Shown: in pieces, positions 7,886-23,941 of the stretch | Layout of the letters: every line of letters begins with the position of its first letter | Position numbering within the stretch: position 1 is the first letter of the stretch | Source of the DNA: Rhodobacterales bacterium HTCC2255 | GTDB lineage: Bacteria > Pseudomonadota > Alphaproteobacteria > Rhodobacterales > Rhodobacteraceae | DNA: 64,000 nt | Direction of reading: 5' to 3' | Assembly: GCA_000153745.1 (NCBI GenBank) | Contig: DS022282.1 | Location: 1-64,000, forward strand | Translations under genes and position numbers: made by a program | The notes under the pieces: model-generated | Told to the model about the DNA's origin: nothing | What the model saw: the letters and a program-made list of their open reading frames with translations, nothing else | The model's database searches: none

Positions 7886-7973
7886 GGAGAGGTGGCAGAG
7901 TGGTCGAATGCGGCGGTCTTGAAAACCGTTGAACTGCGAGGTTCCCAGGGTTCGAATCCCTGTCTCTCCGCCA
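7886..7973 (+). tRNA. tRNA-Ser (anticodon UGA)
   Basis: An 88-nt class II tRNA with a long variable arm and encoded CCA. The acceptor stem pairs GGAGAGG with TCTCTCC (last pair G-U). The anticodon loop CTTGAAA (7918-7924) gives anticodon TGA at 7920-7922. The T-loop GGTTCGAATCCC type arm is present. The 3' end together with seven following bases (7960-7980) reappears inverted at 10981-11001. Confidence 0.97.
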
Positions 7974-8842: not shown

Positions 8843-9133
8843 TTAATCAGCATCCAAATACATAAACGCTCTCTTTGCTCCATTATCTAGAGCCTTCAGT
8901 GCATTCTGGTAATCTGGGCTGTTGTATCCATTCTCAGCGGCTTCCATGCTTTCCCATTCAATGACTATGGTTCTTACTGCCTCTCCATCTTCTTTGACTG
9001 CGAAGGGAACGCCCCTTGCAATAAATTTTGCTCCTGCTTTTTCCATAGCAGGACGGGCCAGTACAGCATATGCAGCCAGCTTCTCAGGGTCACTTACACT
9101 TTTATAGACTACAACTTGAATAACTTTAGACAC
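8843..9133 (-). CDS. DUF1330 family small protein
   Basis: A 96-residue protein of the dimeric alpha/beta-barrel type. Family features are the central IEWESMEAAENGYNSPDY and the conserved YQNALKALDNGAKR near the C-terminus. Function of DUF1330 proteins is unknown. It starts with GTG preceded by AAGGA. It is read divergently from the lyase-like gene, and the gap contains shared element A; the putative -10 box lies 31 nt before the GTG. A paralogue sits at 17990-18289. Confidence 0.8.
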   Translation of the reverse strand: MSKVIQVVVYKSVSDPEKLAAYAVLARPAMEKAGAKFIARGVPFAVKEDGEAVRTIVIEWESMEAAENGYNSPDYQNALKALDNGAKRAFMYLDAD

Positions 9134-9140
9134 ATCTCAT

Positions 9141-9208
9141 TCCTTAATGTTGATAATCTCAATATGATACATTAGAATAATCATAAGTAAATGTTAGAAC
9201 AGATAGGT
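9141..9208 (+). promoter_or_regulatory. Shared divergent promoter/operator element, copy A
   Basis: The core at 9164-9196 begins ATGATACATTAG and ends GTAAATGTTA. It matches copies B (12820-12852) and C (15363-15331, reverse) at about 29-30 of 33 positions. Read on the minus strand it gives TTTACT, 16 bp, TATCAT: a good -35/-10 pair, with the -10 lying 31 nt from the GTG at 9133. On the plus strand the core ends 22 nt before the ATG at 9218. The similarity to copy C continues outward through TCCTTA and TTGATAAT. Confidence 0.7.
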
Positions 9209-9217
9209 GTGAATAGA

Positions 9218-10852
9218 ATGAAGAAATTACTGAGTATATTTATCACTATCACACTACTCATACCCCATGCAGTGTTTGCAGACACAGTCGCTCAGTCACA
9301 ACGCATGTTAAACCAACTCGGCTACAATGCTGGTCCTGTTGATGGTGCTTACGGTGGTAAGACCAAACGTGCGCTTGAGGCATTCTATGCTAAGAGCGGT
9401 GGACCATATGACGGTAAGTTAGACGCTAATGAAGTCATAGACCTTAAGAATGCAGTAAAAGAAATTAAAACCAATAATGGTAAACACAAAAAGATACTTC
9501 CTGAACGTTATAGTATATATCCCGATTGGTGTACTTATGAGAACAAATATACATTTAAACGTATTGAAAATTTATTAGGAAATAAAAATCATGATTTAAA
9601 AACTATTGAGTTATTTGGAAAATCTGATGAACATATGTTGGTTATGATTGAACAATTAACTTTGTATGTTAATGAATTTATTTTGCACCCAAATCAACAG
9701 AATGCAAATGATATAAAAAAGATTTATTTCCTTTTATTCAAAAATAATTTTTTCATAGATTTACATGAAAATAATCATGACGACTCATTAAATATGAAAG
9801 ATTTCTTAATTCTTTCTATGTATTTATTTCAGGCGCTAAATAGAGATAATTATTTAAACACTAGTGAGAAACAAACATTTTTAAGTGAAATTCAAAAGCG
9901 TTTTGACAAAATAAAACCTGCTCATAAGTGGGGGTTTACAATGAGTAAATGCAAGATTGGTAGAGACCAATGGAGTTGTCAAAATCATACATATTCCCAT
10001 CAACTTACCAGAACTTTATATGGAGCTACTTTTGGGTCGAGTAAAGATTATGCAATGGGTGAAAAAATGTATAAGTTTGCTATAGATGATTTAAAGCCAG
10101 ATGGCGCGCTGTGGAGAGAAGCTGTAAGGGGAAGATGGTCCTGGAGTTATTATGCTCACACTTTGGGATTGCTGCTTTCGATAGCAGAAATCTATAAACA
10201 CAATGGGGTTGATTTATATTCATACAAGTCTGATAAAAATGGCCTAACCATTCATGATGCAGTAAGTTTTTTATTGGAATCTATTCAAGATAATGAAAAG
10301 ATTTGGTTGTATGCAAAAGAGTTAAAAAGTGTCCAACATTATATAAATTTTACTGACTATAAGTCTCCTGAGTATTTGCAAATGTTAACTACAACTGCAG
10401 AACGGAACGGCTTGAAAAACTGGTTCTATATTTATCGTAATAATTTTCCGATTCATCCAAATACTGAGTTAGGAAATAAGTTAATTCCAACATATAAAAG
10501 TAAATTAGAACACTCCCAACATATAGGGATTCTCGCTCAATGTCTTTATGCTGAAAAAGGGCAAAAACTAGCGAGCAATGAAAAGTTTGACCGTGATGTA
10601 ATATCCATGGAAAAAAAATTATCATGCTTACAAAGTGCATTTAATAAAAAAGACATGGGTGAACTATTATCGAAATCAGATATGTTATTAATGAGTAAAG
10701 CTTTTAAGAATGATCAAAAACCGAAAAATAAATCAAACTTGATTAGAGCTGGTCTTAATCCAATATTGGTTAATAAAAATAAAAAGTATTTATTACGACT
10801 TATAAATTTCACTGGAAATGTCGAAACCTTTTGTTCAAAGCCGATTAAATGA
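9218..10852 (+). CDS. Exported protein: peptidoglycan-binding domain plus alginate-lyase-like domain
   Basis: About 544 residues. A signal peptide (MKKLLSIFITITLLIPHAVFA) is followed by a PG_binding_1 repeat (LNQLGYNAGPVDGAYGGKTK). The large C-terminal region contains NHTYSHQLTRTLYGATFG, GALWREAVRGRWSWSYYAH and an adjoining helical pattern, which resemble the alpha/alpha-toroid of alginate lyases and related polysaccharide lyases. The start at 9218 (with AGGTG upstream) is preferred to an in-frame ATG at 9191, which falls inside the conserved promoter core. Probably acts on a surface or environmental polysaccharide in the periplasm. The lyase assignment is moderate, since a catalytic residue set could not be verified. 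Confidence 0.6.
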   Translation: MKKLLSIFITITLLIPHAVFADTVAQSQRMLNQLGYNAGPVDGAYGGKTKRALEAFYAKSGGPYDGKLDANEVIDLKNAVKEIKTNNGKHKKILPERYSIYPDWCTYENKYTFKRIENLLGNKNHDLKTIELFGKSDEHMLVMIEQLTLYVNEFILHPNQQNANDIKKIYFLLFKNNFFIDLHENNHDDSLNMKDFLILSMYLFQALNRDNYLNTSEKQTFLSEIQKRFDKIKPAHKWGFTMSKCKIGRDQWSCQNHTYSHQLTRTLYGATFGSSKDYAMGEKMYKFAIDDLKPDGALWREAVRGRWSWSYYAHTLGLLLSIAEIYKHNGVDLYSYKSDKNGLTIHDAVSFLLESIQDNEKIWLYAKELKSVQHYINFTDYKSPEYLQMLTTTAERNGLKNWFYIYRNNFPIHPNTELGNKLIPTYKSKLEHSQHIGILAQCLYAEKGQKLASNEKFDRDVISMEKKLSCLQSAFNKKDMGELLSKSDMLLMSKAFKNDQKPKNKSNLIRAGLNPILVNKNKKYLLRLINFTGNVETFCSKPIK

Positions 10853-10980
10853 TGGCGACATGGGTATTATGCTTTTAATTTTAGCATAATGGTCAGTACT
10901 CAAAATGGGCATAACAAATGCCATGCTAAAAGATTGAGTATTATCAGATGCTTATCGGGGATATGCCACTGCTAGTTAGG

Positions 10981-11001
10981 CAGTAAGTGGCGGAGAGACA
11001 G
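10981..11001 (-). repeat. Inverted copy of the tRNA-Ser 3' end (att-like)
   Basis: Exact 21-nt reverse complement of 7960-7980. Flanking bases do not continue the match, apart from scattered identities. It is not part of a second tRNA gene: no further tRNA arms are found around it. It marks a possible right boundary of an integrated and later rearranged segment of about 3 kb. Confidence 0.6.
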
Positions 11002-11149
11002 CGTGTTCATCTCTTATTATATCCGCTACTGATCATCTAATACTCACAACTTGTTGGCCATTTAATTCACAAAAGATTGGTTCTGAAAGATATATCGTGA
11101 CTGCTGAAATAGATAAATAATATTTCAAATGTCTAACCACACTCCTCAT

Positions 11150-11194
11150 GGGTTAAAAAACAAAAGTCCTTGAGCAGTTTTTTACTGCACAAGG
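11150..11194 (-). terminator. Terminator of the DUF3303 gene
   Basis: Reading the minus strand, CCTTG-T-GCAGT and ACTGC-T-CAAGG form two 5-bp stems separated by one mismatch around a five-base loop. They are followed by ACTTTTGTTTTTT. It lies 20 nt after the stop of the gene ending at 11215. Confidence 0.7.
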
Positions 11195-11214
11195 CTCAAT
11201 TGTTATCGATTAAA

Positions 11215-11520
11215 TCAACCTTGCTGGGATGCAAGCAATGCTTGCACCAGCTTCCTAGCAGTATCATCGTCAACTACTGGCGTCACAGTTGGGAAAGTAC
11301 ACTGCCCTGACCAGCCCATCATCCATGAAGTTAGGTTTTCCTGATTATCAGATTCAATTACAGCCCATCCACAGCCATTTGGTATGTCATGCCAACGTCC
11401 AATCTGTTTTACACCATTAGGAAGTTCTCCAGAAATTTGTTCTGGCGTCATACTTGCAAAAAAAGCCTGGGTATCAGTCTTTTTATCATTTTCAATTTGA
11501 TATTTGCACATAAAAATCAT
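11215..11520 (-). CDS. DUF3303 family small protein
   Basis: A 101-residue protein. The pattern GRWHDIPNGCGWAVIESDN, then WSGQCTFPTVTPVVDDD, matches DUF3303, a dimeric alpha/beta-barrel-like family of unknown function. The ATG at 11520 is preferred over the one at 11532 because GGAGAG lies at the right distance before it. Single gene with its own terminator. It belongs to the crowd of 94-106-residue proteins in this region. Confidence 0.8.
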   Translation of the reverse strand: MIFMCKYQIENDKKTDTQAFFASMTPEQISGELPNGVKQIGRWHDIPNGCGWAVIESDNQENLTSWMMGWSGQCTFPTVTPVVDDDTARKLVQALLASQQG

Positions 11521-11853
11521 AGTTCTCTCCATCTTTAAGTTACGTTAAGAATTAGTTTAATTGTAGGTTGATCTATTTTGTGGTTGCCGCATGGCGATAC
11601 CAAAGAGGACCTAATTAAACACTAGATAGTGATTAAGATTAAAGCATAGTATCAATAAAAGTCATACAAAAAGTTTCTGGCAAGTTGAAGATATCTTGCA
11701 TGAACGTGACATTTTGAGAGGTATTAGGCTTTGTCTGACTGTCCGTCAGCGATAAAACCTTTGACTTGGCTTTGCGTGGATGACTGTTTTGCGGACGAAG
11801 TGGACATTCGAATATCTTGCAATGACCATGGCACAATAGAATTTTGTTCTTAC
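11521..11853. other. Gene-free stretch; possible decayed sequence of higher GC
   Basis: No convincing coding region. The part near 11730-11830 is richer in G and C than the left part and resembles the adjoining transaminase gene in composition, so it may have arrived with it. Open frames across it show no recognisable protein features. Confidence 0.4.
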
Positions 11854-12786
11854 TTAATATTCAACTGGATCACGATGTTTACCTTCATTGTGCAGCTGCC
11901 AATAGGCATGCATTATACGTTTCGACAAAGGCCCGATATTGCCGGAAGCAATTGGTCGTTCGTCAATTCTTGTAACAGGCATCACGCCCCCGGCAGTCGA
12001 GGTTATGAAGACCTCGTCAGCGGTTTTAAGCTTGTCGACAGTAATGTCTTGCGCATGACATCTAACTTCCAATTCTTCGCAAATGTCAAAAATGGTTTGC
12101 CGCGTAATTCCCAACAAGACACTTACGTCGGGCGTTGAAACCACACCATTGGTGATCGAGAAAATATTGAATCCTGGCCCTTCGGACACGTTGCCATTAA
12201 GGTCAATCAGAGTGGCTGTGTCTGCTCCACGTTCGTAGGCAGCATAAAGCCCTTTGACCATATCCAACCAATGGTAATTCTTGACGGTAGGATCAACAGA
12301 GCTTGGTGGAATGCGAACGACATCCGTGATCGCCAGATGCAAACCACACTCCAACTGTTCTTTGCTGGCCACTGAACCGAACGGAATGGCAAAAGCTATG
12401 AAGCGGTTTTCTGCATCTCTTGGATCTCGACTGAAGTTGGGTGACGTTCCTCTTGTGCAGATGAACTCAACATATGCATTTTTGAGCTTGGACAACGCCA
12501 CGCAATTATGAAGAATTTCTATGATTTGCGCTTTGGTGTAAGGAATTGACATATGCAAAGCGTCCATTCCACGGGAAAATCGATCTAAATGATCACCTAA
12601 CTTGAAAAATGCTCCGCCCCATACATGGGCAACGTCATAAGTCGCGTCTGAATGAAGAAACCCATAATCCAAAACGGACAATTTCGCCTCATGGATAGGT
12701 AGGTACTGCCCATCCATATAGGCAATGCCTGGAGGGTAATTGCGATGATCTGTGTGACGCGAAGATAATTTGGGCAATATGCGCAT
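11854..12786 (-). CDS. Class IV PLP aminotransferase, (R)-selective amine transaminase-like
   Basis: A 310-residue fold-type IV PLP enzyme. The PLP lysine lies in SSVDPTVKNYHWLDMVKG. The N-terminal YGFLHSDATYDVAHVWGGAFF and the C-terminal VFITSTAGGVMPVTRID closely resemble the (R)-amine:pyruvate transaminase group rather than ordinary branched-chain aminotransferases. The reaction would move an amino group between an (R)-amine or D-amino acid and a keto acid. Local GC is roughly 42-47 percent, above the surrounding 30s, consistent with transfer. It is read divergently from the 97-residue gene across shared element B, with the putative -10 box 34 nt before its ATG. The native substrate is unknown. 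Confidence 0.8.
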   Translation of the reverse strand: MRILPKLSSRHTDHRNYPPGIAYMDGQYLPIHEAKLSVLDYGFLHSDATYDVAHVWGGAFFKLGDHLDRFSRGMDALHMSIPYTKAQIIEILHNCVALSKLKNAYVEFICTRGTSPNFSRDPRDAENRFIAFAIPFGSVASKEQLECGLHLAITDVVRIPPSSVDPTVKNYHWLDMVKGLYAAYERGADTATLIDLNGNVSEGPGFNIFSITNGVVSTPDVSVLLGITRQTIFDICEELEVRCHAQDITVDKLKTADEVFITSTAGGVMPVTRIDERPIASGNIGPLSKRIMHAYWQLHNEGKHRDPVEY

Positions 12787-12819
12787 GTTTCTAGTCTCAT
12801 AAAAGTTGCAGATCTAAAA

Positions 12820-12866
12820 ATGATACACTAGCTTGATCATATGTAAATATTAGAACAGAAAGGTGA
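12820..12866 (+). promoter_or_regulatory. Shared divergent promoter/operator element, copy B
   Basis: The core at 12820-12852 reads ATGATACACTAGCTTGATCA and continues to GTAAATATTA; it matches copy A and copy C. The match to copy A continues through TAGAACAGA and AGGTG, the ribosome-binding site of the plus-strand gene. On the minus strand it gives TTTACA, 16 bp, TATCAT. The TGATCA palindrome in its middle may be part of a repressor site. Confidence 0.7.
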
Positions 12867-12871
12867 GAGAA

Positions 12872-13165
12872 ATGGCAAAGTATGCAGTTCACACAAAGTG
12901 GTCATGGCCTAATGGTGTTCCAAGCGCAGAGAGTATGCAGCAGAGACATCGTGAAGTTAAATCAAAAACTAAAGCTGAAGACATTATCTGGTTTAAGATT
13001 GATGAAAACACGCATCAGTCAATTATCATTTATTCTTCCGAAGCAGACGCAAAAGAAGAGAATGCTCAACGACAGGCAATGCGCAAAGACACAATCACAG
13101 AAACAGGCCATTCAATGGTAGAAGAGACTATGGGTGAAGTTCTCTCAATTATGTCTGAAGTTTAG
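12872..13165 (+). CDS. Small protein of unknown function (97 aa)
   Basis: Not recognised. The start ATG follows AAAGGTGAG at good spacing; an in-frame GTG at 12863 is inside that ribosome-binding site. The protein begins MAKYAVHTKWSWPNGVPSAE and is hydrophilic, with a beta-alpha-beta-like pattern that could be another dimeric alpha/beta barrel. It has no signal peptide. It is expressed from element B and followed 11 nt later by the small exported peptide gene. Confidence 0.7.
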   Translation: MAKYAVHTKWSWPNGVPSAESMQQRHREVKSKTKAEDIIWFKIDENTHQSIIIYSSEADAKEENAQRQAMRKDTITETGHSMVEETMGEVLSIMSEV

Positions 13166-13176
13166 ATGGGATGAAA

Positions 13177-13281
13177 ATGAAGAAACTATTGGTATGTATT
13201 CTGTTTGTTTTGTTTGTTACACAGGTATTTGCTAATGAGTATACATCCGATCCGTATTATGATGAGCAGCTTTTCTATTAA
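13177..13281 (+). CDS. Small exported peptide (34 aa)
   Basis: A short reading frame MKKLLVCILFVLFVTQVFA followed by NEYTSDPYYDEQLFY and TAA. The first 19 residues form a textbook signal peptide with a VFA cleavage site. The predicted mature part is only 15 residues, acidic and Tyr-rich. It starts 11 nt after the 97-residue gene with GGGATG before it, so it is probably co-transcribed. It may be a real secreted peptide or the stump of a longer exported protein. Confidence 0.5.
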   Translation: MKKLLVCILFVLFVTQVFANEYTSDPYYDEQLFY

Positions 13282-13405
13282 AAAATAAAAAGGTTGTTGT
13301 GGCTATTTATAATGAAAAAATAAAGAATAAGTAATGTCAAAAATAATACCATTCTAAGTCAATAAAACAATAGTTTCCTAAGATTGCATTTTGGGTGAGA
13401 ATAAA

Positions 13406-14518
13406 TTGAAAAGTAAAATTTGGATTGTTTTAATAACATTGTTAGTTTCAGTAATTAATATGAATATTAACATTCAAGCAAATGAATCTACATATAAAAT
13501 CAAACGTGTTCCAGCTGAATGGGAGCCTCAAGAGGCAATTTGGATGCAATGGCCTGGCTATTGGGAAAAAGATTATGAATTAACTTTCGCAAAGATAACT
13601 AATATAATTTCACGCTACGAAAAGTTACATATTTTATACGCTTCAGATCAAATTTATACAGAAGCACAAAAATCAATTAGAGATATAGGGTCAGACCCAC
13701 AGCAGAAAAATATTTATTGGCATAAGGTTCCCAATGATAATGCTTGGATGAGAGATAATGGGCCTGTTTATGTTTTGAACGACAACGAGTTAAGGATTCA
13801 AAATTGGAATTTTGATGCATGGGGTGGTGCTTTTGGCTCAGATATCCCTTTTAATTTAGACAATGAAGTCCCAGATAAAGTTGGTGAGATTCTAGGTTTG
13901 CCTGTTGATCAAATAGAAATAGTACATGAACGAGGTAATTTAGAATTTAATGGATCAGACACAGTTATGTTAAATTGGAGTGCTCTTGGAGATCCAAACC
14001 GAAATTTGAACTACAATAAACAGCAAGCAGAACGTGATTTAAAGACGCACTTTGGAGTAACTAAAGTTATTTTTATTGAAGGCATCCCAGATGGAGATCT
14101 TACAAAAGGACACATTGATGGTATTGCACGGTTTATTGGACTAAGAACTGTAGTCGTTGTTCAATGTACAACACACTCATTATGTCAACCAGGTAGTAAA
14201 GATGCTGAGATTTATGATAATGCAGCTAAAATGATTAAAGAAGCAGGGTTTAGTGTAATAAGAGAACCTATTGAAGGCTTTGTTAAACACAATGGACAAA
14301 TGTTTGATACTAATTACATGAACTGGTTAGTTGGAAACGGATTTGTAATCGTACCTGGTTTTGGAAATCAAGATACAGATAGCCAAGCAAAATCTCGCAT
14401 AGAAAGCTATTTTCCAAATCGTGATGTGCATCTTATTGAAATGTTAAGTTCTTGGGCAGCTGGAGGTGGGGTGCATTGTCATACAAATGATCAACCTGCC
14501 TTTTCAAAATCTAAATGA
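13406..14518 (+). CDS. Exported agmatine deiminase / peptidylarginine deiminase family protein
   Basis: About 370 residues of the guanidine-modifying PAD_porph fold. The N-terminus is a signal peptide-like helix (KIWIVLITLLVSVI). Family landmarks are VPAEWEPQEAIWMQWP, the catalytic Asp in NAWMRDNGPVYV, the histidine region TKGHIDGIARF, and the nucleophilic cysteine in GGGVHCHTNDQPA near the C-terminus. The start is taken as TTG 13406, placed after GGGTGAG; the TTG at 13391 is less likely. It would convert agmatine or a related guanidine to the ureido product and ammonia. The export signal is uncommon for agmatine deiminase. Confidence 0.82.
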   Translation: MKSKIWIVLITLLVSVINMNINIQANESTYKIKRVPAEWEPQEAIWMQWPGYWEKDYELTFAKITNIISRYEKLHILYASDQIYTEAQKSIRDIGSDPQQKNIYWHKVPNDNAWMRDNGPVYVLNDNELRIQNWNFDAWGGAFGSDIPFNLDNEVPDKVGEILGLPVDQIEIVHERGNLEFNGSDTVMLNWSALGDPNRNLNYNKQQAERDLKTHFGVTKVIFIEGIPDGDLTKGHIDGIARFIGLRTVVVVQCTTHSLCQPGSKDAEIYDNAAKMIKEAGFSVIREPIEGFVKHNGQMFDTNYMNWLVGNGFVIVPGFGNQDTDSQAKSRIESYFPNRDVHLIEMLSSWAAGGGVHCHTNDQPAFSKSK

Positions 14519-14661
14519 ATCTTATTTAGATGATATAGGATATAGAAAAATATATTAATTACAGTTACTTATAATGAGTAATTAATCTAAATTACTCCTG
14601 TATTTCAACCAAGGATGTTTATACTTTAGCTCGCATGACTAACGTCACCGCTATGTAAGAG

Positions 14662-14970
14662 TTATTTATTAATTGAAACTAATAATTCCGCATCAACCTT
14701 TATGTTTTCGTGTTCATACTTATCTCTCATGGGGATGACTGCATTTATGGCAAATTCATCCACAGCTTTCATTGCTTCATCATTAGAAGTCGTAACAAAT
14801 GCAGTCATTTGTGTAGGGTCATTTCGATCTTTATTTATATCAACAGTGACATTACCTGATGCTGATGGATGACTCCAAGAGAGCCATAACTGCTTCAGCT
14901 CTTCTATAAAGGCATCATTGTCAGATTCTGTTGTAAACTTATTGATGTTTAATCGTTTAATTGTGGCCAT
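14662..14970 (-). CDS. Small protein of unknown function (102 aa)
   Basis: Not recognised. It begins MATIKRLNINKFTTESDND, and the ATG follows AGGTGAG; the in-frame GTG at 14982 is part of that ribosome site. Predicted alternation of strands and helices would fit a dimeric alpha/beta barrel. It is the second gene after the NTF2-like gene (21 nt gap), so both are likely under element C. Confidence 0.65.
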   Translation of the reverse strand: MATIKRLNINKFTTESDNDAFIEELKQLWLSWSHPSASGNVTVDINKDRNDPTQMTAFVTTSNDEAMKAVDEFAINAVIPMRDKYEHENIKVDAELLVSINK

Positions 14971-14991
14971 AAGATTTCTCACCTATTTGCT

Positions 14992-15309
14992 TTAAGAAAC
15001 TTTTCTTTGGTGAACATAGTCATGTACTTTTCCTTCTCGCAAGTATGCAACACCCATAACTGTGTCTACACTATCACCAGAGTTAACTTGGTGTGTTCCA
15101 ACAATTATTTCATTATTTTCATATAAAGTAACTACGTCACCTACTACCCTAAAATTAGTAGTATTCACCCAATCAAGAGTAGCTTGCCTATCAAAATCTG
15201 ATGTATTCCATTTAAAGTCTTGTGTAATTACAGCTTCAATATGCGATGAGTCATTTGTATTTGTACCCTGTTTCCAAGCATCTACCCATTTTTCCCAGGT
15301 AACTGACAT
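14992..15309 (-). CDS. NTF2/SnoaL-like small protein
   Basis: A 105-residue protein with the helix-rich N-terminus and curved-sheet pattern of SnoaL/NTF2-like folds. Typical elements are the early WVDAWKQG, ITQDFKWN and the closing MGVAYLREGKVHDYVHQR. Members serve as cyclases, isomerases or binding proteins; no function can be assigned. It starts 22 nt after the end of the element C core, with AGAAGGAG as ribosome site, and is divergent from the gene at 15395. Confidence 0.65.
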   Translation of the reverse strand: MSVTWEKWVDAWKQGTNTNDSSHIEAVITQDFKWNTSDFDRQATLDWVNTTNFRVVGDVVTLYENNEIIVGTHQVNSGDSVDTVMGVAYLREGKVHDYVHQRKVS

Positions 15310-15323
15310 TTGATTTTCTCCTT

Positions 15324-15386
15324 CTGTTAGTAATATTTACTTATGATTAGGCTAGTGTATCATTCTAATATTATCAATAATAAGGA
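15324..15386 (-). promoter_or_regulatory. Shared divergent promoter/operator element, copy C
   Basis: On the minus strand the core (15363 down to 15331) reads ATGATACACTAGCCTAATCA and on to GTAAATATTA, matching copies A and B. On the plus strand it shows TTTACT, 16 bp, TATCAT, with the -10 ending 32 nt before the ATG at 15395. The outer flank TTGATAAT/TCCTTA is shared with copy A. Its orientation relative to neighbours is reversed compared with A and B, so the spacing is conserved through an inversion. Confidence 0.7.
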
Positions 15387-15394
15387 TTAGACCT

Positions 15395-15679
15395 ATGGCT
15401 TATGCAAGAATTAACACTATAACTTTTTCATCAGAAGAAGCGGCTGACGAATTACAAGCCAACTATGCATCAACTGCACCAGAAGGATTTCCCGAAGCTC
15501 AATTGCTTGTTGCGGTAAGAACTGGACCACTTACTGCCTCACTAACATCAATCTATGAAGATAAAGCTGCTTTTGATAGATCTGCTGATGAACGCACAAG
15601 ACGAATGAAAGCTAATGGTCATCTAATGGAAGCAGTAGATGTTCAAGAGGGTGAAGTATATTTGAACCATGCGAGATAA
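15395..15679 (+). CDS. ABM-like small protein (94 aa)
   Basis: A 94-residue protein beginning MAYARINTITFSSEEAADEL. The pattern of an early strand, a helix with conserved acidic residues, then strands resembles antibiotic-biosynthesis-monooxygenase-like dimeric barrels. The segment IYEDKAAFDRSADERTRR is consistent with that fold. No catalytic residues can be named. Ribosome site AAGGATTA. It is driven by the plus-strand side of element C. Confidence 0.6.
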   Translation: MAYARINTITFSSEEAADELQANYASTAPEGFPEAQLLVAVRTGPLTASLTSIYEDKAAFDRSADERTRRMKANGHLMEAVDVQEGEVYLNHAR

Positions 15680-19430: not shown

Positions 19431-20087
19431 TCAATTATTTTTTTGTTGTTCCAATGTGGCAATGATAGAAGGCAAACGTTTACCTTGCAACATCATATGA
19501 TCACGCATTAAATTACATGCATGCTCGCCATCCCCAGATAGAATTGCATCACAAATAATTTTATGCTCATCAGTTGATTTATTTAATCTGCCTCGAATTT
19601 CGTATGGCATAGTTCTGTAAGAGTTCAGATTTATTTGGAGTTGCCTTAGTTGCTCAATGAGCCAATCATTTCCGCTCGCATTATGAATAGCAGTATGAAA
19701 ATCTAAATTTGCCATCGCATATTCTGCATTATTTTGAATTTCCGCTGCTTGTGTGCATTTTGCCAAGCCACGCTCGATTGCTTCAACATTTTCTTTAGTA
19801 AGCGATAACGCAGCTAGTCTGCATGCCATACCTTCTAATTCTGCAGCAACCTGAAATAAATCAAGTAATTGTTTTGCACTCAATACTCTAACAAATGAGC
19901 CCTTTCTTGGACGTGTTTCTAAAACACCAGATTCAACTAATGTGCGTATAGCTTCTCTAATAGGTGTTCTTGAGACGCCAAATCTTTCAGCAAGAGCGGT
20001 AACTTCTAGTTGATCTCCTGGCTTTAGAATGCCTGAAGATACTTCTTTGCGAATGTCAGAAATTAATTTGTCAGCTGTTCGGGCCAT
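19431..20087 (-). CDS. GntR-family regulator, FCD subfamily
   Basis: A 218-residue transcription factor. The winged helix occupies residues about 5-70 (LAERFGVSRTPIREAIRTLVESG). The C-terminal FCD domain contains FHTAIHNASGNDWL and the conserved EHKIICDAILSGDGEHA, whose histidines and Asp bind a metal and the effector acid. It is divergent from the TRAP operon, and a palindrome over the TRAP promoter is a natural target. The likely effector is the transported dicarboxylate or a related acid (inference). Confidence 0.88.
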   Translation of the reverse strand: MARTADKLISDIRKEVSSGILKPGDQLEVTALAERFGVSRTPIREAIRTLVESGVLETRPRKGSFVRVLSAKQLLDLFQVAAELEGMACRLAALSLTKENVEAIERGLAKCTQAAEIQNNAEYAMANLDFHTAIHNASGNDWLIEQLRQLQINLNSYRTMPYEIRGRLNKSTDEHKIICDAILSGDGEHACNLMRDHMMLQGKRLPSIIATLEQQKNN

Positions 20088-20173
20088 GTTAGTTCACTGT
20101 TTTTGTTGTCCTAATAAATACACTGCCTTCTAAATGGATGCAATGAGCATTATTATGTATTTTTATAACTTGC

Positions 20174-20190
20174 ATATGGATACATATAAT
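20174..20190 (+). promoter_or_regulatory. Candidate GntR operator overlapping the TRAP -10 box
   Basis: The inverted repeat ATATG-GATA-CATAT spans 20174-20187 and overlaps TATAAT at 20185-20190, a perfect -10 hexamer. A clear -35 box is not seen at the matching distance. Binding there would block transcription of dctP. The placement between the regulator and its probable target supports the role; the site is proposed from sequence alone. Confidence 0.4.
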
Positions 20191-20247
20191 GTACTACTTT
20201 ATCAACGCACTTGGAATCGCCTTGTGTGTTTGTTTTGGGAGGAACGA

Positions 20248-21231
20248 ATGAGAACAACAATACTGGCTGCGACAGCGGCCCTGTCACTTGCTGCAAGTGG
20301 CATAGCACAAGCGGAAGAGCTTCGCTTATCTCACCAATGGTCAAATAAAGATGTACGCCACAAAGTGGCTGAGATCGTTGCAAACGAAGTAGCAGCAGCA
20401 AACGTTGATCTAGAGATCAAGATCTTTGGATCAAAATCACTTTTCAAACCACGCGAGCAGTATAAGCCGCTAAGCCGTGGCCAATTAGATATGACTGTTT
20501 TCCCACTAAGTTACGCGGGCGGACAACAACCAGCATTCAACTTAACGCTTATGCCTGGATTGGTTAAGAACCATGATCACGCAGCACGCTTAAATGAATC
20601 AGAGTTCATGGGTAAACTAGAAGCTAAAATGGCAGAAGACGATGTCATGGTGCTTGTACATGGTTATCTTGCAGGTGGCTTTGTTGGTAAAGACAAATGC
20701 ATCACAAACCCTGACGATGTAAAAGGCCTGCAAACACGTGCTGCTGGTAAAGCGTTTGAACAAATGCTGGTAGGCGCGGGGGCATCTATTGCTTCAATGG
20801 CGTCTTCAGAGATTTATAATGCGATGCAAACAGGCGTTCTAAACGCTGCGAACACATCATCGTCATCATTTGTGTCTTACCGTATTTATGAGCAAGTAAA
20901 ATGCTACACACCAGCTGGTGATGTTGCGCTTTGGTTTATGTATCAGCCATTGTTGATGAACAAATCAAAGTTTGAAAGCTTATCTGATGCACAACAAGCT
21001 GCTTTAAGAGCAGGGGCTGCTAAAGCAGAAGCTTACTACTTAGAAGAAGCTAAGAAGCAAGATGCTGCATCTGTTAAAGTCTTCGCAGACGCAGGCGTTG
21101 AGATTGCAAACATGTCTCCAGCTGATTTTGAAGCATGGCGCGCAATTGCGATGGAAACATCATACAAGAAGTTTGTATCAGACGTTTCTGACGGACAAGA
21201 GCTTCTCGATCTCGCTTTATCTGTAGAATAA
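20248..21231 (+). CDS. dctP: TRAP transporter substrate-binding protein (DctP family)
   Basis: Periplasmic solute-binding protein of about 327 residues. A signal peptide (about residues 1-24, ending GIAQA) is followed by the DctP fold: LRLSHQWSNKDVRH, the conserved Arg-containing GLQTRAAGKAFEQML and the later YEQVKCYTPAGDVALW. The ATG at 20248 follows GGGAGGA; the frame is open upstream to 20134, but no good start exists there. GC content is clearly higher than in the genes around it. It binds the substrate and delivers it to the DctQM permease. Confidence 0.9.
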   Translation: MRTTILAATAALSLAASGIAQAEELRLSHQWSNKDVRHKVAEIVANEVAAANVDLEIKIFGSKSLFKPREQYKPLSRGQLDMTVFPLSYAGGQQPAFNLTLMPGLVKNHDHAARLNESEFMGKLEAKMAEDDVMVLVHGYLAGGFVGKDKCITNPDDVKGLQTRAAGKAFEQMLVGAGASIASMASSEIYNAMQTGVLNAANTSSSSFVSYRIYEQVKCYTPAGDVALWFMYQPLLMNKSKFESLSDAQQAALRAGAAKAEAYYLEEAKKQDAASVKVFADAGVEIANMSPADFEAWRAIAMETSYKKFVSDVSDGQELLDLALSVE

Positions 21232-21238
21232 TTTTTTA

Positions 21239-21277
21239 GGGCAGCAGTGATTAACATTGCTGCCCATTTTCTTTTTT
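21239..21277 (+). terminator. Terminator-like hairpin between dctP and dctQ
   Basis: An 8-bp stem GGGCAGCA/TGCTGCCC with an 11-nt loop is followed by ATTTTCTTTTTT. Located right after the binding-protein gene, it likely lowers transcription of the permease genes relative to dctP, as at the first ABC operon in this window. Confidence 0.75.
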
Positions 21278-21300
21278 GATTTTTAATTTAGGAAAACTTG

Positions 21301-21849
21301 ATGGCAAGTGTGAGCTCCACTGCGGAATCTAAAACAGGCAATAACCAGTTCCTACGCATTGTAGCAGCTATCTCCACACTTTCAGGTTGGCTGTCAGCTG
21401 GAATGATAATGCTGTCAGTTCTTATTACGTGCCAGATGATTTTTATCCGGTTTGTTTTGAACGGCTCAACTGTTTGGCAAACTGAGATGGTTGTGTATCT
21501 TATGATCACAGCAACACTTATTGGATTGCCATATGTTCAGCGTATGCGCGGACATGTGAACGTAGATCTCATTCCCATAATGTGCCCGCCACGTTTGCGA
21601 TATTACTTAAGCCTTTTTACCCTAAGCTTATCATCCGCCATCGTGGTTGTGATGCTGTATTACGGTTATGACTATTGGCACATTGCTTGGTCAAAAGGTT
21701 GGACGTCAGATACGATATGGGCTGTTCGTTTATGGATACCATATTCAGCTCTACCAATTGGTTTTTCTCTTTTGCTTTTACAACTTATTGCTGACTTGGT
21801 TGCTGTTATTTTGAAGATAGATGCCCCTTTCGGTTTGGAGGACAAATAA
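21301..21849 (+). CDS. dctQ: TRAP transporter small permease (DctQ family)
   Basis: A 182-residue inner-membrane protein with four hydrophobic segments and the DctQ hallmark region TVWQTEMVVYLMITATLIGLP. The ATG at 21301 follows AGGAAAACTT; a TTG one codon before it is less likely. Its stop overlaps the dctM start by 1 nt. It forms the membrane complex with DctM, driven by a sodium or proton gradient. Confidence 0.88.
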   Translation: MASVSSTAESKTGNNQFLRIVAAISTLSGWLSAGMIMLSVLITCQMIFIRFVLNGSTVWQTEMVVYLMITATLIGLPYVQRMRGHVNVDLIPIMCPPRLRYYLSLFTLSLSSAIVVVMLYYGYDYWHIAWSKGWTSDTIWAVRLWIPYSALPIGFSLLLLQLIADLVAVILKIDAPFGLEDK

Positions 21850-23165
21850 TGGATCCGTTATTCCTTGGTGCACTCGTTGCGATTATCACAATTGTTGTTC
21901 TGTTCTCTGGCGTCTCAGTTGCTATTGGGTTGCTGATTGTATCAGCAGGCTTCCTCATTACGTTTGATGGTTTGCGCTCACTTGAGTTGATGCCAGAAAT
22001 TCTCTTTGGAAAGCTCGATAGCTTTGCGCTTCTTTCTATTCCTATGTTTATCATTATGGGCTCTTCGATTGCATCTACGCGGGCAGGGGCTGATTTGTAT
22101 GAAGCTCTTGAGAGATGGCTTACGCGTGTCCCGGGTGGTTTGGTTATATCTAACCTTGGAGCCTGTGCTTTGTTTGCTGCGATGTCTGGCTCTAGCCCTG
22201 CAACCTGTGCAGCTATTGGTAAGATGGGTATTCCAGAGATGCGCAAGCGTGGATATCCTGACGGCGTTGCTGCAGGCTCTATTGCTGCGGGGGGAACGCT
22301 TGGTATTCTTATTCCACCATCCGTCACAATGATTGTTTATGGGATTGCGACAGAGACATCTATTGGACGCTTGTTCTTAGCGGGTGTGTTCCCAGGCTTG
22401 CTTCTGGTGAGCTTATTTATGGCATGGTCACTGTATTCCACATGGAAATCAGGAAACACAGAAACCTTGTCACCACGCTCATACACTTGGCAGGAGCGTT
22501 TTGAGATCTTACCGCGTGTGATACCGTTTATACTGATCATTCTAGGCGTCTTATATGCAATGTATGGCGGTGTTGCGACGCCATCAGAAACAGCAGCTGT
22601 TGGCGCTTTACTCTGTTTATTAATCGCAATGATTATTTATAAGCTCTGGCACCCACGCCTCTTATGGCAGGTGTTACGTGACAGCACGAAAGAAAGCGTG
22701 ATGATCTTGTTTATCATCGCGGCTGCCGGTGTGTTCTCTTATATGCTTTCAAGCTTATACATCACACAATCCATTGCAGAATGGATAGGGACGCTTGATG
22801 TAAATAGATGGGTCCTCATGATCGCCATCAACATCTTTTTACTTATTGCAGGGTTCTTCTTACCACCTGTTGCGGTGATCTTAATGGCGGCGCCTATCTT
22901 ATTGCCAATCATTACAACTGCTGGCTTTGATCCTATTTGGTTTGCGGTTGTTCTCACAATTAACATGGAGATTGGTTTGATCTCACCCCCCGTTGGATTG
23001 AACCTCTACGTGATTAACGGCATTGCCCCAGATATCCCGCTTAAGACCATCCTCTCAGGCTCACTCCCATTTGTAGCCTGTATGATCGTTGCAATCATTC
23101 TCCTTTGCATCTTCCCAGATATCGCAACTTGGCTCCCAGACTACATGATGGGAACCGCAAGATGA
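21849..23165 (+). CDS. dctM: TRAP transporter large permease (DctM family)
   Basis: A 438-residue inner-membrane protein with about 12 hydrophobic segments. Conserved parts include SGSSPATCAAIGKMGIPEM, AAGGTLGILIPPSVTMIVYG, TPSETAAVGA and EIGLISPPVGLNLYVI. It provides the transport path. GC-rich like dctP, and composition falls sharply at the next gene. Together with dctPQ it imports a carboxylate, probably a C4-dicarboxylate in view of the following gene. Confidence 0.92.
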   Translation: MDPLFLGALVAIITIVVLFSGVSVAIGLLIVSAGFLITFDGLRSLELMPEILFGKLDSFALLSIPMFIIMGSSIASTRAGADLYEALERWLTRVPGGLVISNLGACALFAAMSGSSPATCAAIGKMGIPEMRKRGYPDGVAAGSIAAGGTLGILIPPSVTMIVYGIATETSIGRLFLAGVFPGLLLVSLFMAWSLYSTWKSGNTETLSPRSYTWQERFEILPRVIPFILIILGVLYAMYGGVATPSETAAVGALLCLLIAMIIYKLWHPRLLWQVLRDSTKESVMILFIIAAAGVFSYMLSSLYITQSIAEWIGTLDVNRWVLMIAINIFLLIAGFFLPPVAVILMAAPILLPIITTAGFDPIWFAVVLTINMEIGLISPPVGLNLYVINGIAPDIPLKTILSGSLPFVACMIVAIILLCIFPDIATWLPDYMMGTAR

Positions 23166-23188
23166 AAAATATTATAAAAGGTTAATTT

Positions 23189-23941
23189 ATGACAAATAAA
23201 AATCGCCGTGTAGGATTGATAGTCCCAAGTTCAAATGTAACTATGGAAACTGAAATACCAGCTTTATTACGGAACAGAGAAGAAATTTTTTCTGATCGAT
23301 TTACATTTCATTCATCCAGAATGCGTATGAAAAGTGTTGTAAAAGAAGAGCTTGAGCGTATGGATGATGATAGTGTTAGATGCGCGTTTGAGTTATCTGA
23401 TGCTGCAGTTGAAGTGCAAGCTTATGCTTGTTTGGTCGCTATAATGAGTAGGGGGCATGGATATCATAAAGTATCTGAACAGCGGTTGTTCAAAGCAACT
23501 AAAGAAAATGGTGTGCCCACTCCATCTGTAAACTCAGCAGGCGCGCTCATAGATGGCATGCACTCATTAGGAATGAAAAAAGTATCAATTATTTGCCCTT
23601 ATATGAAACCACTTACAAAATTAGTTGTTGATTATATTGAAAACCAAGGAATTGAAGTTCAGGATTTTCTTGCACTAGAAATTCCCAATAATCTAGAGGT
23701 TGCAGCACAAGATCCAAATGCTCCAGCCGAATTGTGGAAAAAATTAGATACAAAAGGAATAGATGGCATTATTGCATCTGCTTGTGTTCAAATGCCATCA
23801 CTTCCAGCTGTAGAAAAAATTGAAAAGATGTCAGGATTGCCAACACTTTCTGCATCTGTTGCAACAACTTGGTCTATTCTTAATGCATTAGATTTAACTG
23901 CAAAAGCTTCTGGTGGTGGAGCGTTATTGGCCGGATATTAA
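23189..23941 (+). CDS. Maleate isomerase-like enzyme (Asp/Glu racemase superfamily)
   Basis: A 250-residue enzyme of the maleate isomerase/arylmalonate decarboxylase group. The N-terminal motif VGLIVPSSNVTMETEIPA is characteristic. Two active-site cysteines are in place: YACLVAIMSRG and IASACVQMPSLP. Maleate isomerase turns maleate into fumarate without a cofactor. It lies 23 nt after dctM, so the TRAP transporter probably imports its substrate and the product enters the citric acid cycle. It is distinctly more AT-rich than the TRAP genes. The exact substrate is inferred. Confidence 0.82.
   Translation: MTNKNRRVGLIVPSSNVTMETEIPALLRNREEIFSDRFTFHSSRMRMKSVVKEELERMDDDSVRCAFELSDAAVEVQAYACLVAIMSRGHGYHKVSEQRLFKATKENGVPTPSVNSAGALIDGMHSLGMKKVSIICPYMKPLTKLVVDYIENQGIEVQDFLALEIPNNLEVAAQDPNAPAELWKKLDTKGIDGIIASACVQMPSLPAVEKIEKMSGLPTLSASVATTWSILNALDLTAKASGGGALLAGY

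Follow-up and report, generated by a model that had tools for sequence, protein, structure and literature searches.

A recurrent promoter-like element between divergent small genes of a tRNA-linked region in Rhodobacterales bacterium HTCC2255, a candidate propagated bidirectional promoter

The window analyzed here, the first 64,000 nucleotides of contig DS022282.1 of Rhodobacterales bacterium HTCC2255 (assembly GCA_000153745.1), carries three copies (w1, w2 and w3) of a short intergenic element with a 33-bp core, all within a region that extends from a tRNA-Ser(UGA) gene to about 16.1 kb. The element copies and the genes around them are listed below, with protein lengths in amino acids (aa) and expectation values given as E; the names "NTF2-like" and "ABM-like" are labels carried over from a first-pass annotation of this DNA.

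9141 to 9212 (core 9164-9196), forward strand: element copy w1, between the DUF1330 gene and the exported alginate-lyase-like gene
12797 to 12868 (core 12820-12852), forward strand: element copy w2, between the class IV aminotransferase gene and the 97-aa gene
15331 to 15386 (core 15331-15363), reverse strand: element copy w3, between the NTF2-like and ABM-like genes
8843 to 9133, reverse strand: DUF1330 protein, 96 aa (Pfam PF07045, E 9.1e-20)
9218 to 10852, forward strand: protein with peptidoglycan-binding and alginate-lyase domains (Pfam PF05426 and PF01471), its N-terminus signal-peptide-like by eye
11854 to 12786, reverse strand: class IV aminotransferase, nearest to branched-chain or D-amino-acid types, under the NCBIfam cut-offs
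12872 to 13165, forward strand: 97-aa protein, no family
13171 to 13281, forward strand: 36-aa peptide
14662 to 14970, reverse strand: 102-aa protein, no family; orthologues adjoin ABM-like genes in other alphaproteobacterial records
14992 to 15309, reverse strand: 105-aa "NTF2-like" protein, no family hit; orthologue in the congener G027
15395 to 15679, forward strand: 94-aa "ABM-like" protein, no family hit; relatives found

The first-pass annotation had placed cores at these three positions, one of them inverted, and a single degenerate pattern does match all three. This pattern was derived from w1-w3 themselves, so its three matches hold by construction; it had no match in 100 shuffles of the window. 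Support independent of the pattern comes from a genome-wide BLASTN search with the w1 region, which recovered w3 at E 8e-10, and from an unguided repeat search that also recovers element copies. Pairwise identity of the cores, previously put at about 29-30 of 33 positions, is indeed 29 for w1-w3 and 30 for w2-w3 but only 27 for w1-w2. The similarity detected by the repeat search exceeds the 33 bp of the core: it covers 72 bp at 78% between w1 and w2, extending into the forward gene's ribosome-binding region, and 56 bp at 82%, inverted, between w1 and w3, reaching the ribosome-binding region of the reverse gene. Divergent genes flank all three cores, and the spacing reported earlier is borne out on both sides: measured from the outer edge of the TATCAT hexamer, the start codon is 31 nt (9133), 34 nt (12786) and 32 nt (15395) away, and measured from the opposite edge of the core it is 22 nt (9218), 20 nt (12872) and 22 nt (15309) away.

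Each copy contains promoter-like hexamers facing in both directions, which were scored by the number of matches to the 12 consensus positions.

9164 to 9191, reverse strand: promoter-like TTTACT-16-TATCAT toward the DUF1330 gene (9/12)
9150 to 9178, forward strand: promoter-like TTGATA-17-TAGAAT toward the lyase gene (10/12)
12820 to 12847, reverse strand: promoter-like TTTACA-16-TATCAT toward the aminotransferase gene (10/12)
12806 to 12834, forward strand: weak promoter-like TTGCAG-17-TAGCTT toward the 97-aa gene (6/12)
15336 to 15363, forward strand: promoter-like TTTACT-16-TATCAT toward the ABM-like gene (9/12)
15349 to 15377, reverse strand: weak promoter-like TTGATA-17-TAGCCT toward the NTF2-like gene (8/12)

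The arrangement TTTAC(T/A)-16-TATCAT, described in the first-pass annotation, was found in w1, w2 and w3 and is also present in two of the three copies in G027 and in a diverged fourth copy (see below for both). A scan for promoters yielded calls in both directions for w1 and in the TATCAT direction for w2 and w3. The opposed -10 could instead be the TATCAT hexamer read backwards (AATGAT; TATGAT in w1), in which -11A and -7T are reciprocal within one -10: ATGAT occupies the key positions in five of the six clear copies, and the sixth, g3 of G027, has GTGAT. The divergent transcription starts are predicted to lie 18 bp apart if the symmetric -10 is used and 28 bp apart if TAGnnT is used. A structured RNA or a repeat of the MITE or REPIN-like type was considered and rejected, as fold z-scores of six strands ranged from -0.30 to 1.24 and none beat the shuffles. 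The element had no match in Rfam up to E 1, and an Rfam search of 7.5-16.5 kb returned only the tRNA itself and one match antisense to it that fell below threshold.

Among 32 congeners, a sequence model detected the element in one, G027, in three copies designated g1, g2 and g3. The NTF2-like gene lies on the TATCAT side of g1 and a gene for an 89-aa protein on the other; the partners of g2 are the ABM-like gene and a gene for a 94-aa protein; g3 is located upstream of a Sel1 protein gene. Both g1 and g2 come after the 3' end of a tRNA-Asn. Since the NTF2-like and ABM-like genes have one common core in the window and separate cores in G027, where the NTF2-like gene is found on the opposite side of its core, neither the partner nor the side is fixed. 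Moreover, a core is missing both at the G027 orthologue of the 97-aa gene (85% identity) and at the ABM-like orthologue in the genome G022, whose similarity to the window begins 12 bases outside the core. The proposal that the six units flanking the window cores form a fixed local regulon is left unproven by these core-less orthologues and by the swapped side of the NTF2-like gene. Core identity is 27-30 of 33 positions within the window genome and 21-26 of 33 across genomes. Between the genomes, the 24 hexamer positions are more conserved (identity 0.815) than the 18 other positions (0.605; permutation p = 0.011).

A second tRNA-linked locus was found in the window genome itself, where the 3' end of a tRNA-Asn is repeated directly at a spacing of 1,376 bp (52 bp at 98%). 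This unit (L153:1801-3214, or about 314.3-315.7 kb of G000:C1, outside the window) contains a 229-aa gene between the two tRNA ends, preceded at 26 nt by TTTACT-16-TATCAT in what we consider a fourth, diverged copy of the element, identical to w1 at 26 of 33 positions and to the other copies at 19-24. The N-terminus of the 229-aa protein reads like a signal peptide, and none of the open reading frames (ORFs) listed in the 1,376-bp unit looks like a recombinase. The locus aligns with that of g1 and g2 in G027 (72.5% over 1,160 bp and 68% over 544 bp). Past the repeat it carries orthologues of the 89-aa and 94-aa genes and no NTF2-like or ABM-like gene, each of which is single in the window genome and lies in the tRNA-Ser region. 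Upstream of the 89-aa orthologue the alignment continues through the core, possibly reflecting a decayed copy. The NTF2-like and ABM-like genes with their core are thus linked to tRNA-Asn in one species and to tRNA-Ser in the other, which could reflect either gain or loss.

A wider distribution of the element was considered and rejected. A search with the core found no further copy at three or fewer mismatches in the 2,296,803 bp (two contigs) of the window genome, and at the same threshold none of 60 relatives had a match; G027 was among these 60 and was missed, g1-g3 being more diverged than that limit, whereas the sequence model finds its three copies. Over the 33 genomes of the genus, strong matches to the model were restricted to the window's own genome and G027; 14 others gave weak matches only (E 0.04-1), which were treated as chance, for a total of 16 of 33 with any match at E <= 1. 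Because this search scored only 150 of 1,418 candidates in the window genome and missed the fourth copy, further degenerate copies may exist. A scan of 295 genomes of the family, mostly one per genus and with at most 18 candidates scored in each, reached E <= 0.02 in only two of the genomes listed (G027 not among them), the window's own and one with a chance-level match (E 0.0095). Finally, TTTACW-N16-TATCAT occurs six times in 18 sources (266 kb), all six in element copies, compared to an expectation of about 0.2 from three matches in a 4-Mb simulation; this count excluded nested search loci, L142 and loci from other genera, and g3 lacks the motif.

Several other matches were encountered. In BAL199, a more distant alphaproteobacterium, a partial element match (L022:7943-7979, E 3e-4 in 212 kb) lies upstream of an ABM-like orthologue that has a stop within its frame. 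A weak match at 2.11 Mb of the window genome (L057) was rejected, as it looks like another repeat beside an integrase-like ORF. At L057:8740-8804, the inverted repeat TATCAA(A/T)TTGATAC occurs twice, in the vicinity of an ORF resembling a tyrosine integrase. A viral or plasmid origin was also rejected, with no exact match of the core consensus in the viral_contigs collection (the phages collection was left out) and none of the ABM-like protein in plasmids.

The region that houses w1-w3 is likely an island or insertion hotspot at the tRNA-Ser gene. Two features of this gene are relevant.

7886 to 7973, forward strand: tRNA-Ser(UGA), the left border of the island
10978 to 11001, reverse strand: 24-bp inverted copy of the tRNA-Ser 3' end (repeat search, 96% identical)

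To the right of the region, G022 and G027 share the gene order of the window, and the contigs of both stop in or near the first gene past the right border. On the left, the G022 contig stops 110 bp after tRNA-Ser, and another G022 contig carries a second copy of the tRNA-Ser end with its flank (128 bp, 88%), as expected if something else had inserted there. The inverted tRNA-Ser end at 10978-11001 lies about 3 kb from the tRNA, in an orientation that is odd for a normal attachment repeat. At the same tRNA-Ser in G009, the adjoining ORF (L144:6581-8230) reads by eye like a large serine recombinase. Further along the window, a segment at 19431-23941 with a GntR regulator, parts of a TRAP transporter and an arylmalonate-decarboxylase-like gene is lacking from G022 and G027, where the genes to either side of it are conserved.

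With moderate confidence, we interpret the element as a propagated bidirectional promoter that accompanies small genes in tRNA islands, and not primarily as the operator of a dedicated regulator. The intergenic module, about 56-72 bp in length, would comprise two overlapping, opposed sigma-70-type promoters with a ribosome-binding region on at least one side; TTTAC(T/A)-16-TATCAT would be the stronger of the two, opposed either by a promoter of the TTG(A/C)-type-17-TAGnnT form or by the near-symmetric -10 read backwards. RNA polymerase would bind in either orientation, leading to transcription of the gene on either side, and the module would be copied along with small genes, or swapped from one to another, in unstable islands adjoining tRNA genes. 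We observe the copies, their hexamers, the tRNA-linked setting, the differing partners in two species and the core-less orthologues; that the element acts as a promoter, which way each copying event ran and by what recombination route is what we infer. A propagated bidirectional promoter explains the copies together with the changed partners and the hexamer-centred conservation, and the element is probably two-way, switch-like DNA that spread along with genes and does not mark one designed regulon. If so, genes arriving in this small-genome marine bacterium would be expressible at once via a ready two-way promoter in the islands where they land, the promoter could pair with different genes on either side, and the recurrence of an intergenic motif need not imply a regulon.

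A number of observations weigh against this interpretation. The opposed TTG-17-TAGnnT promoter is well formed only in w1 (6/12 in w2 and 8/12 in w3), and some copies with a weak opposed promoter may act in one direction only. The hexamer test is modest (p = 0.011) and draws on only six clear copies; inside either genome the hexamers show no significant excess (p = 0.16 and 0.35). Copy g3 departs from the common hexamers, with TTAACT and TATCAC in their place, shows no divergent gene on its TATCAC side among ORFs of at least 40 aa, and sits on a 3.2-kb contig of a genome with 6% contamination. The case for the fourth copy, which the model scores modestly (E 0.0023 in 48 kb, or about 0.1 scaled to the genome), leans also on its location; BLASTN against the genome gave it E 0.115. 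In addition, the higher core identity within the window genome could also be explained by a genome-specific regulator, and similarity that ends near gene starts is partly expected of any decaying intergenic region.

The first-pass annotation had envisaged a bidirectional promoter/operator with a shared regulator; the two-way promoter is well supported as a prediction from sequence, whereas the operator and its regulator are unsupported. That the core is an operator overlapping both promoters, through which one transcription factor controls all six units, is in our estimation rather unlikely, although it would account for the higher core identity within than between genomes, and all three window copies have the arms ATGAT-N11-ATCAT. 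These arms are not retained in the G027 copies, and dyad symmetry of the six copies is within the range of shuffles (p 0.10-0.78; 300 mononucleotide shuffles each), leading us to reject a palindromic operator. Nor is the core significantly more homogeneous than its flanks within the genome (p = 0.23), and no regulator was recognized among the 11 proteins of 8.1-16.1 kb, four of which lack any family hit. HxlR-type genes do occur in other alphaproteobacterial records at loci with orthologues of some island genes (L020 by Pfam, L017 and L024 by eye), but the element model finds nothing in these three loci and the sole HxlR match of the window genome is at 1.78 Mb of the contig; a shared HxlR regulator was rejected on both grounds. 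The GntR regulator of the nearby TRAP cluster was likewise rejected as a candidate, the adjoining stretch at 20088-20133 having no core by eye.

We also considered whether the core serves a cassette system as its recombination site, the promoter being a passenger. The differing partners around the core in two species, the location of the copies in tRNA-linked regions, and the points at which similarity starts (6 bases outside the core for the 97-aa gene, 12 for the G022 ABM-like gene, 20 outside g1 for the 89-aa gene and, for the 94-aa gene, inside g2 within its final 8 bases) are compatible with such a site. Nevertheless, we assign it a low probability: no recombinase was recognized among the 11 island proteins, the core has no significant dyad symmetry, strong copies occur in only two of the 33 genus genomes, and similarity fades near gene starts anyway, with no control genes compared. 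A compromise, in which the core is a two-way promoter and also a preferred crossover point that swaps single small genes between tRNA islands without a resident recombinase, seems to us just as improbable, though it would mean that each incoming gene is expressed at once. Very improbable is a chance likeness of AT-rich promoters or a local duplication without function. In keeping with chance, the region shows no enrichment of generic promoter-like sites (19 at 8.8-16.2 kb versus 29.0 expected from shuffles), but the three-copy pattern was never matched in shuffles, the hexamers are conserved across species, and the distance to start codons is near-constant on both sides.

The propagated bidirectional promoter that we favor resembles several known systems in part. 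Mobile promoters, which Matus-Garcia, Nijveen and van Passel in 2012 and van Passel et al. in 2014 are said to have described, reportedly are similar promoter-bearing intergenic sequences located before non-homologous genes, in few copies per genome; PMC8049555 also refers to this work. Here, too, similar intergenic sequence with promoter-like hexamers precedes non-homologous genes of one genome, and the core is present or absent before orthologues (97-aa in G027, ABM-like in G022); the window module differs from mobile promoters in that it points both ways and sits in tRNA-linked regions. Unlike those of an integron gene-cassette array, for which no search aimed at attC sites or an integron integrase was made, the element genes of the window are divergent and not arranged in one direction.

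Bidirectional promoters whose -10 is pseudo-symmetric, a class credited to Warman et al. 2021, are described in PMC10268837 as more frequent in horizontally acquired DNA and are defined by divergent starts 7-25 bp apart. By that description, the reciprocal -11A and -7T of AATGAT/TATCAT and the predicted 18-bp separation of starts would fit this class; starts about 28 bp apart, as predicted if TTG-17-TAGnnT is right, would fall outside it, and g3 lacks the symmetric A. The unrelated upstream regions of the 97-aa and ABM-like orthologues are reminiscent of horizontal regulatory transfer and switched intergenic regions, as portrayed in PMC5890482, from which the element differs in that one module recurs before different genes of the same genome. 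Cargo adjoining tRNA genes in aquatic bacteria is likewise a property of tycheposons, for which PMC10872708 gives a size of 4-200 kb and a tyrosine recombinase; in contrast, the tRNA-Asn unit is only 1.4 kb and has no recombinase-like ORF among those listed.

A search of solved structures with the 97-aa and 105-aa proteins gave no match, and the named records returned by the protein searches are mostly from Rhodobacteraceae. The N-terminal DNA of the 36-aa peptide gene (13171-13281) is like that of the Sel1 gene downstream of g3 in G027 (L055:2516-2573). The mature parts of the two products are unrelated, and the two species share 88% identity over 58 bp of this signal-peptide-like DNA.

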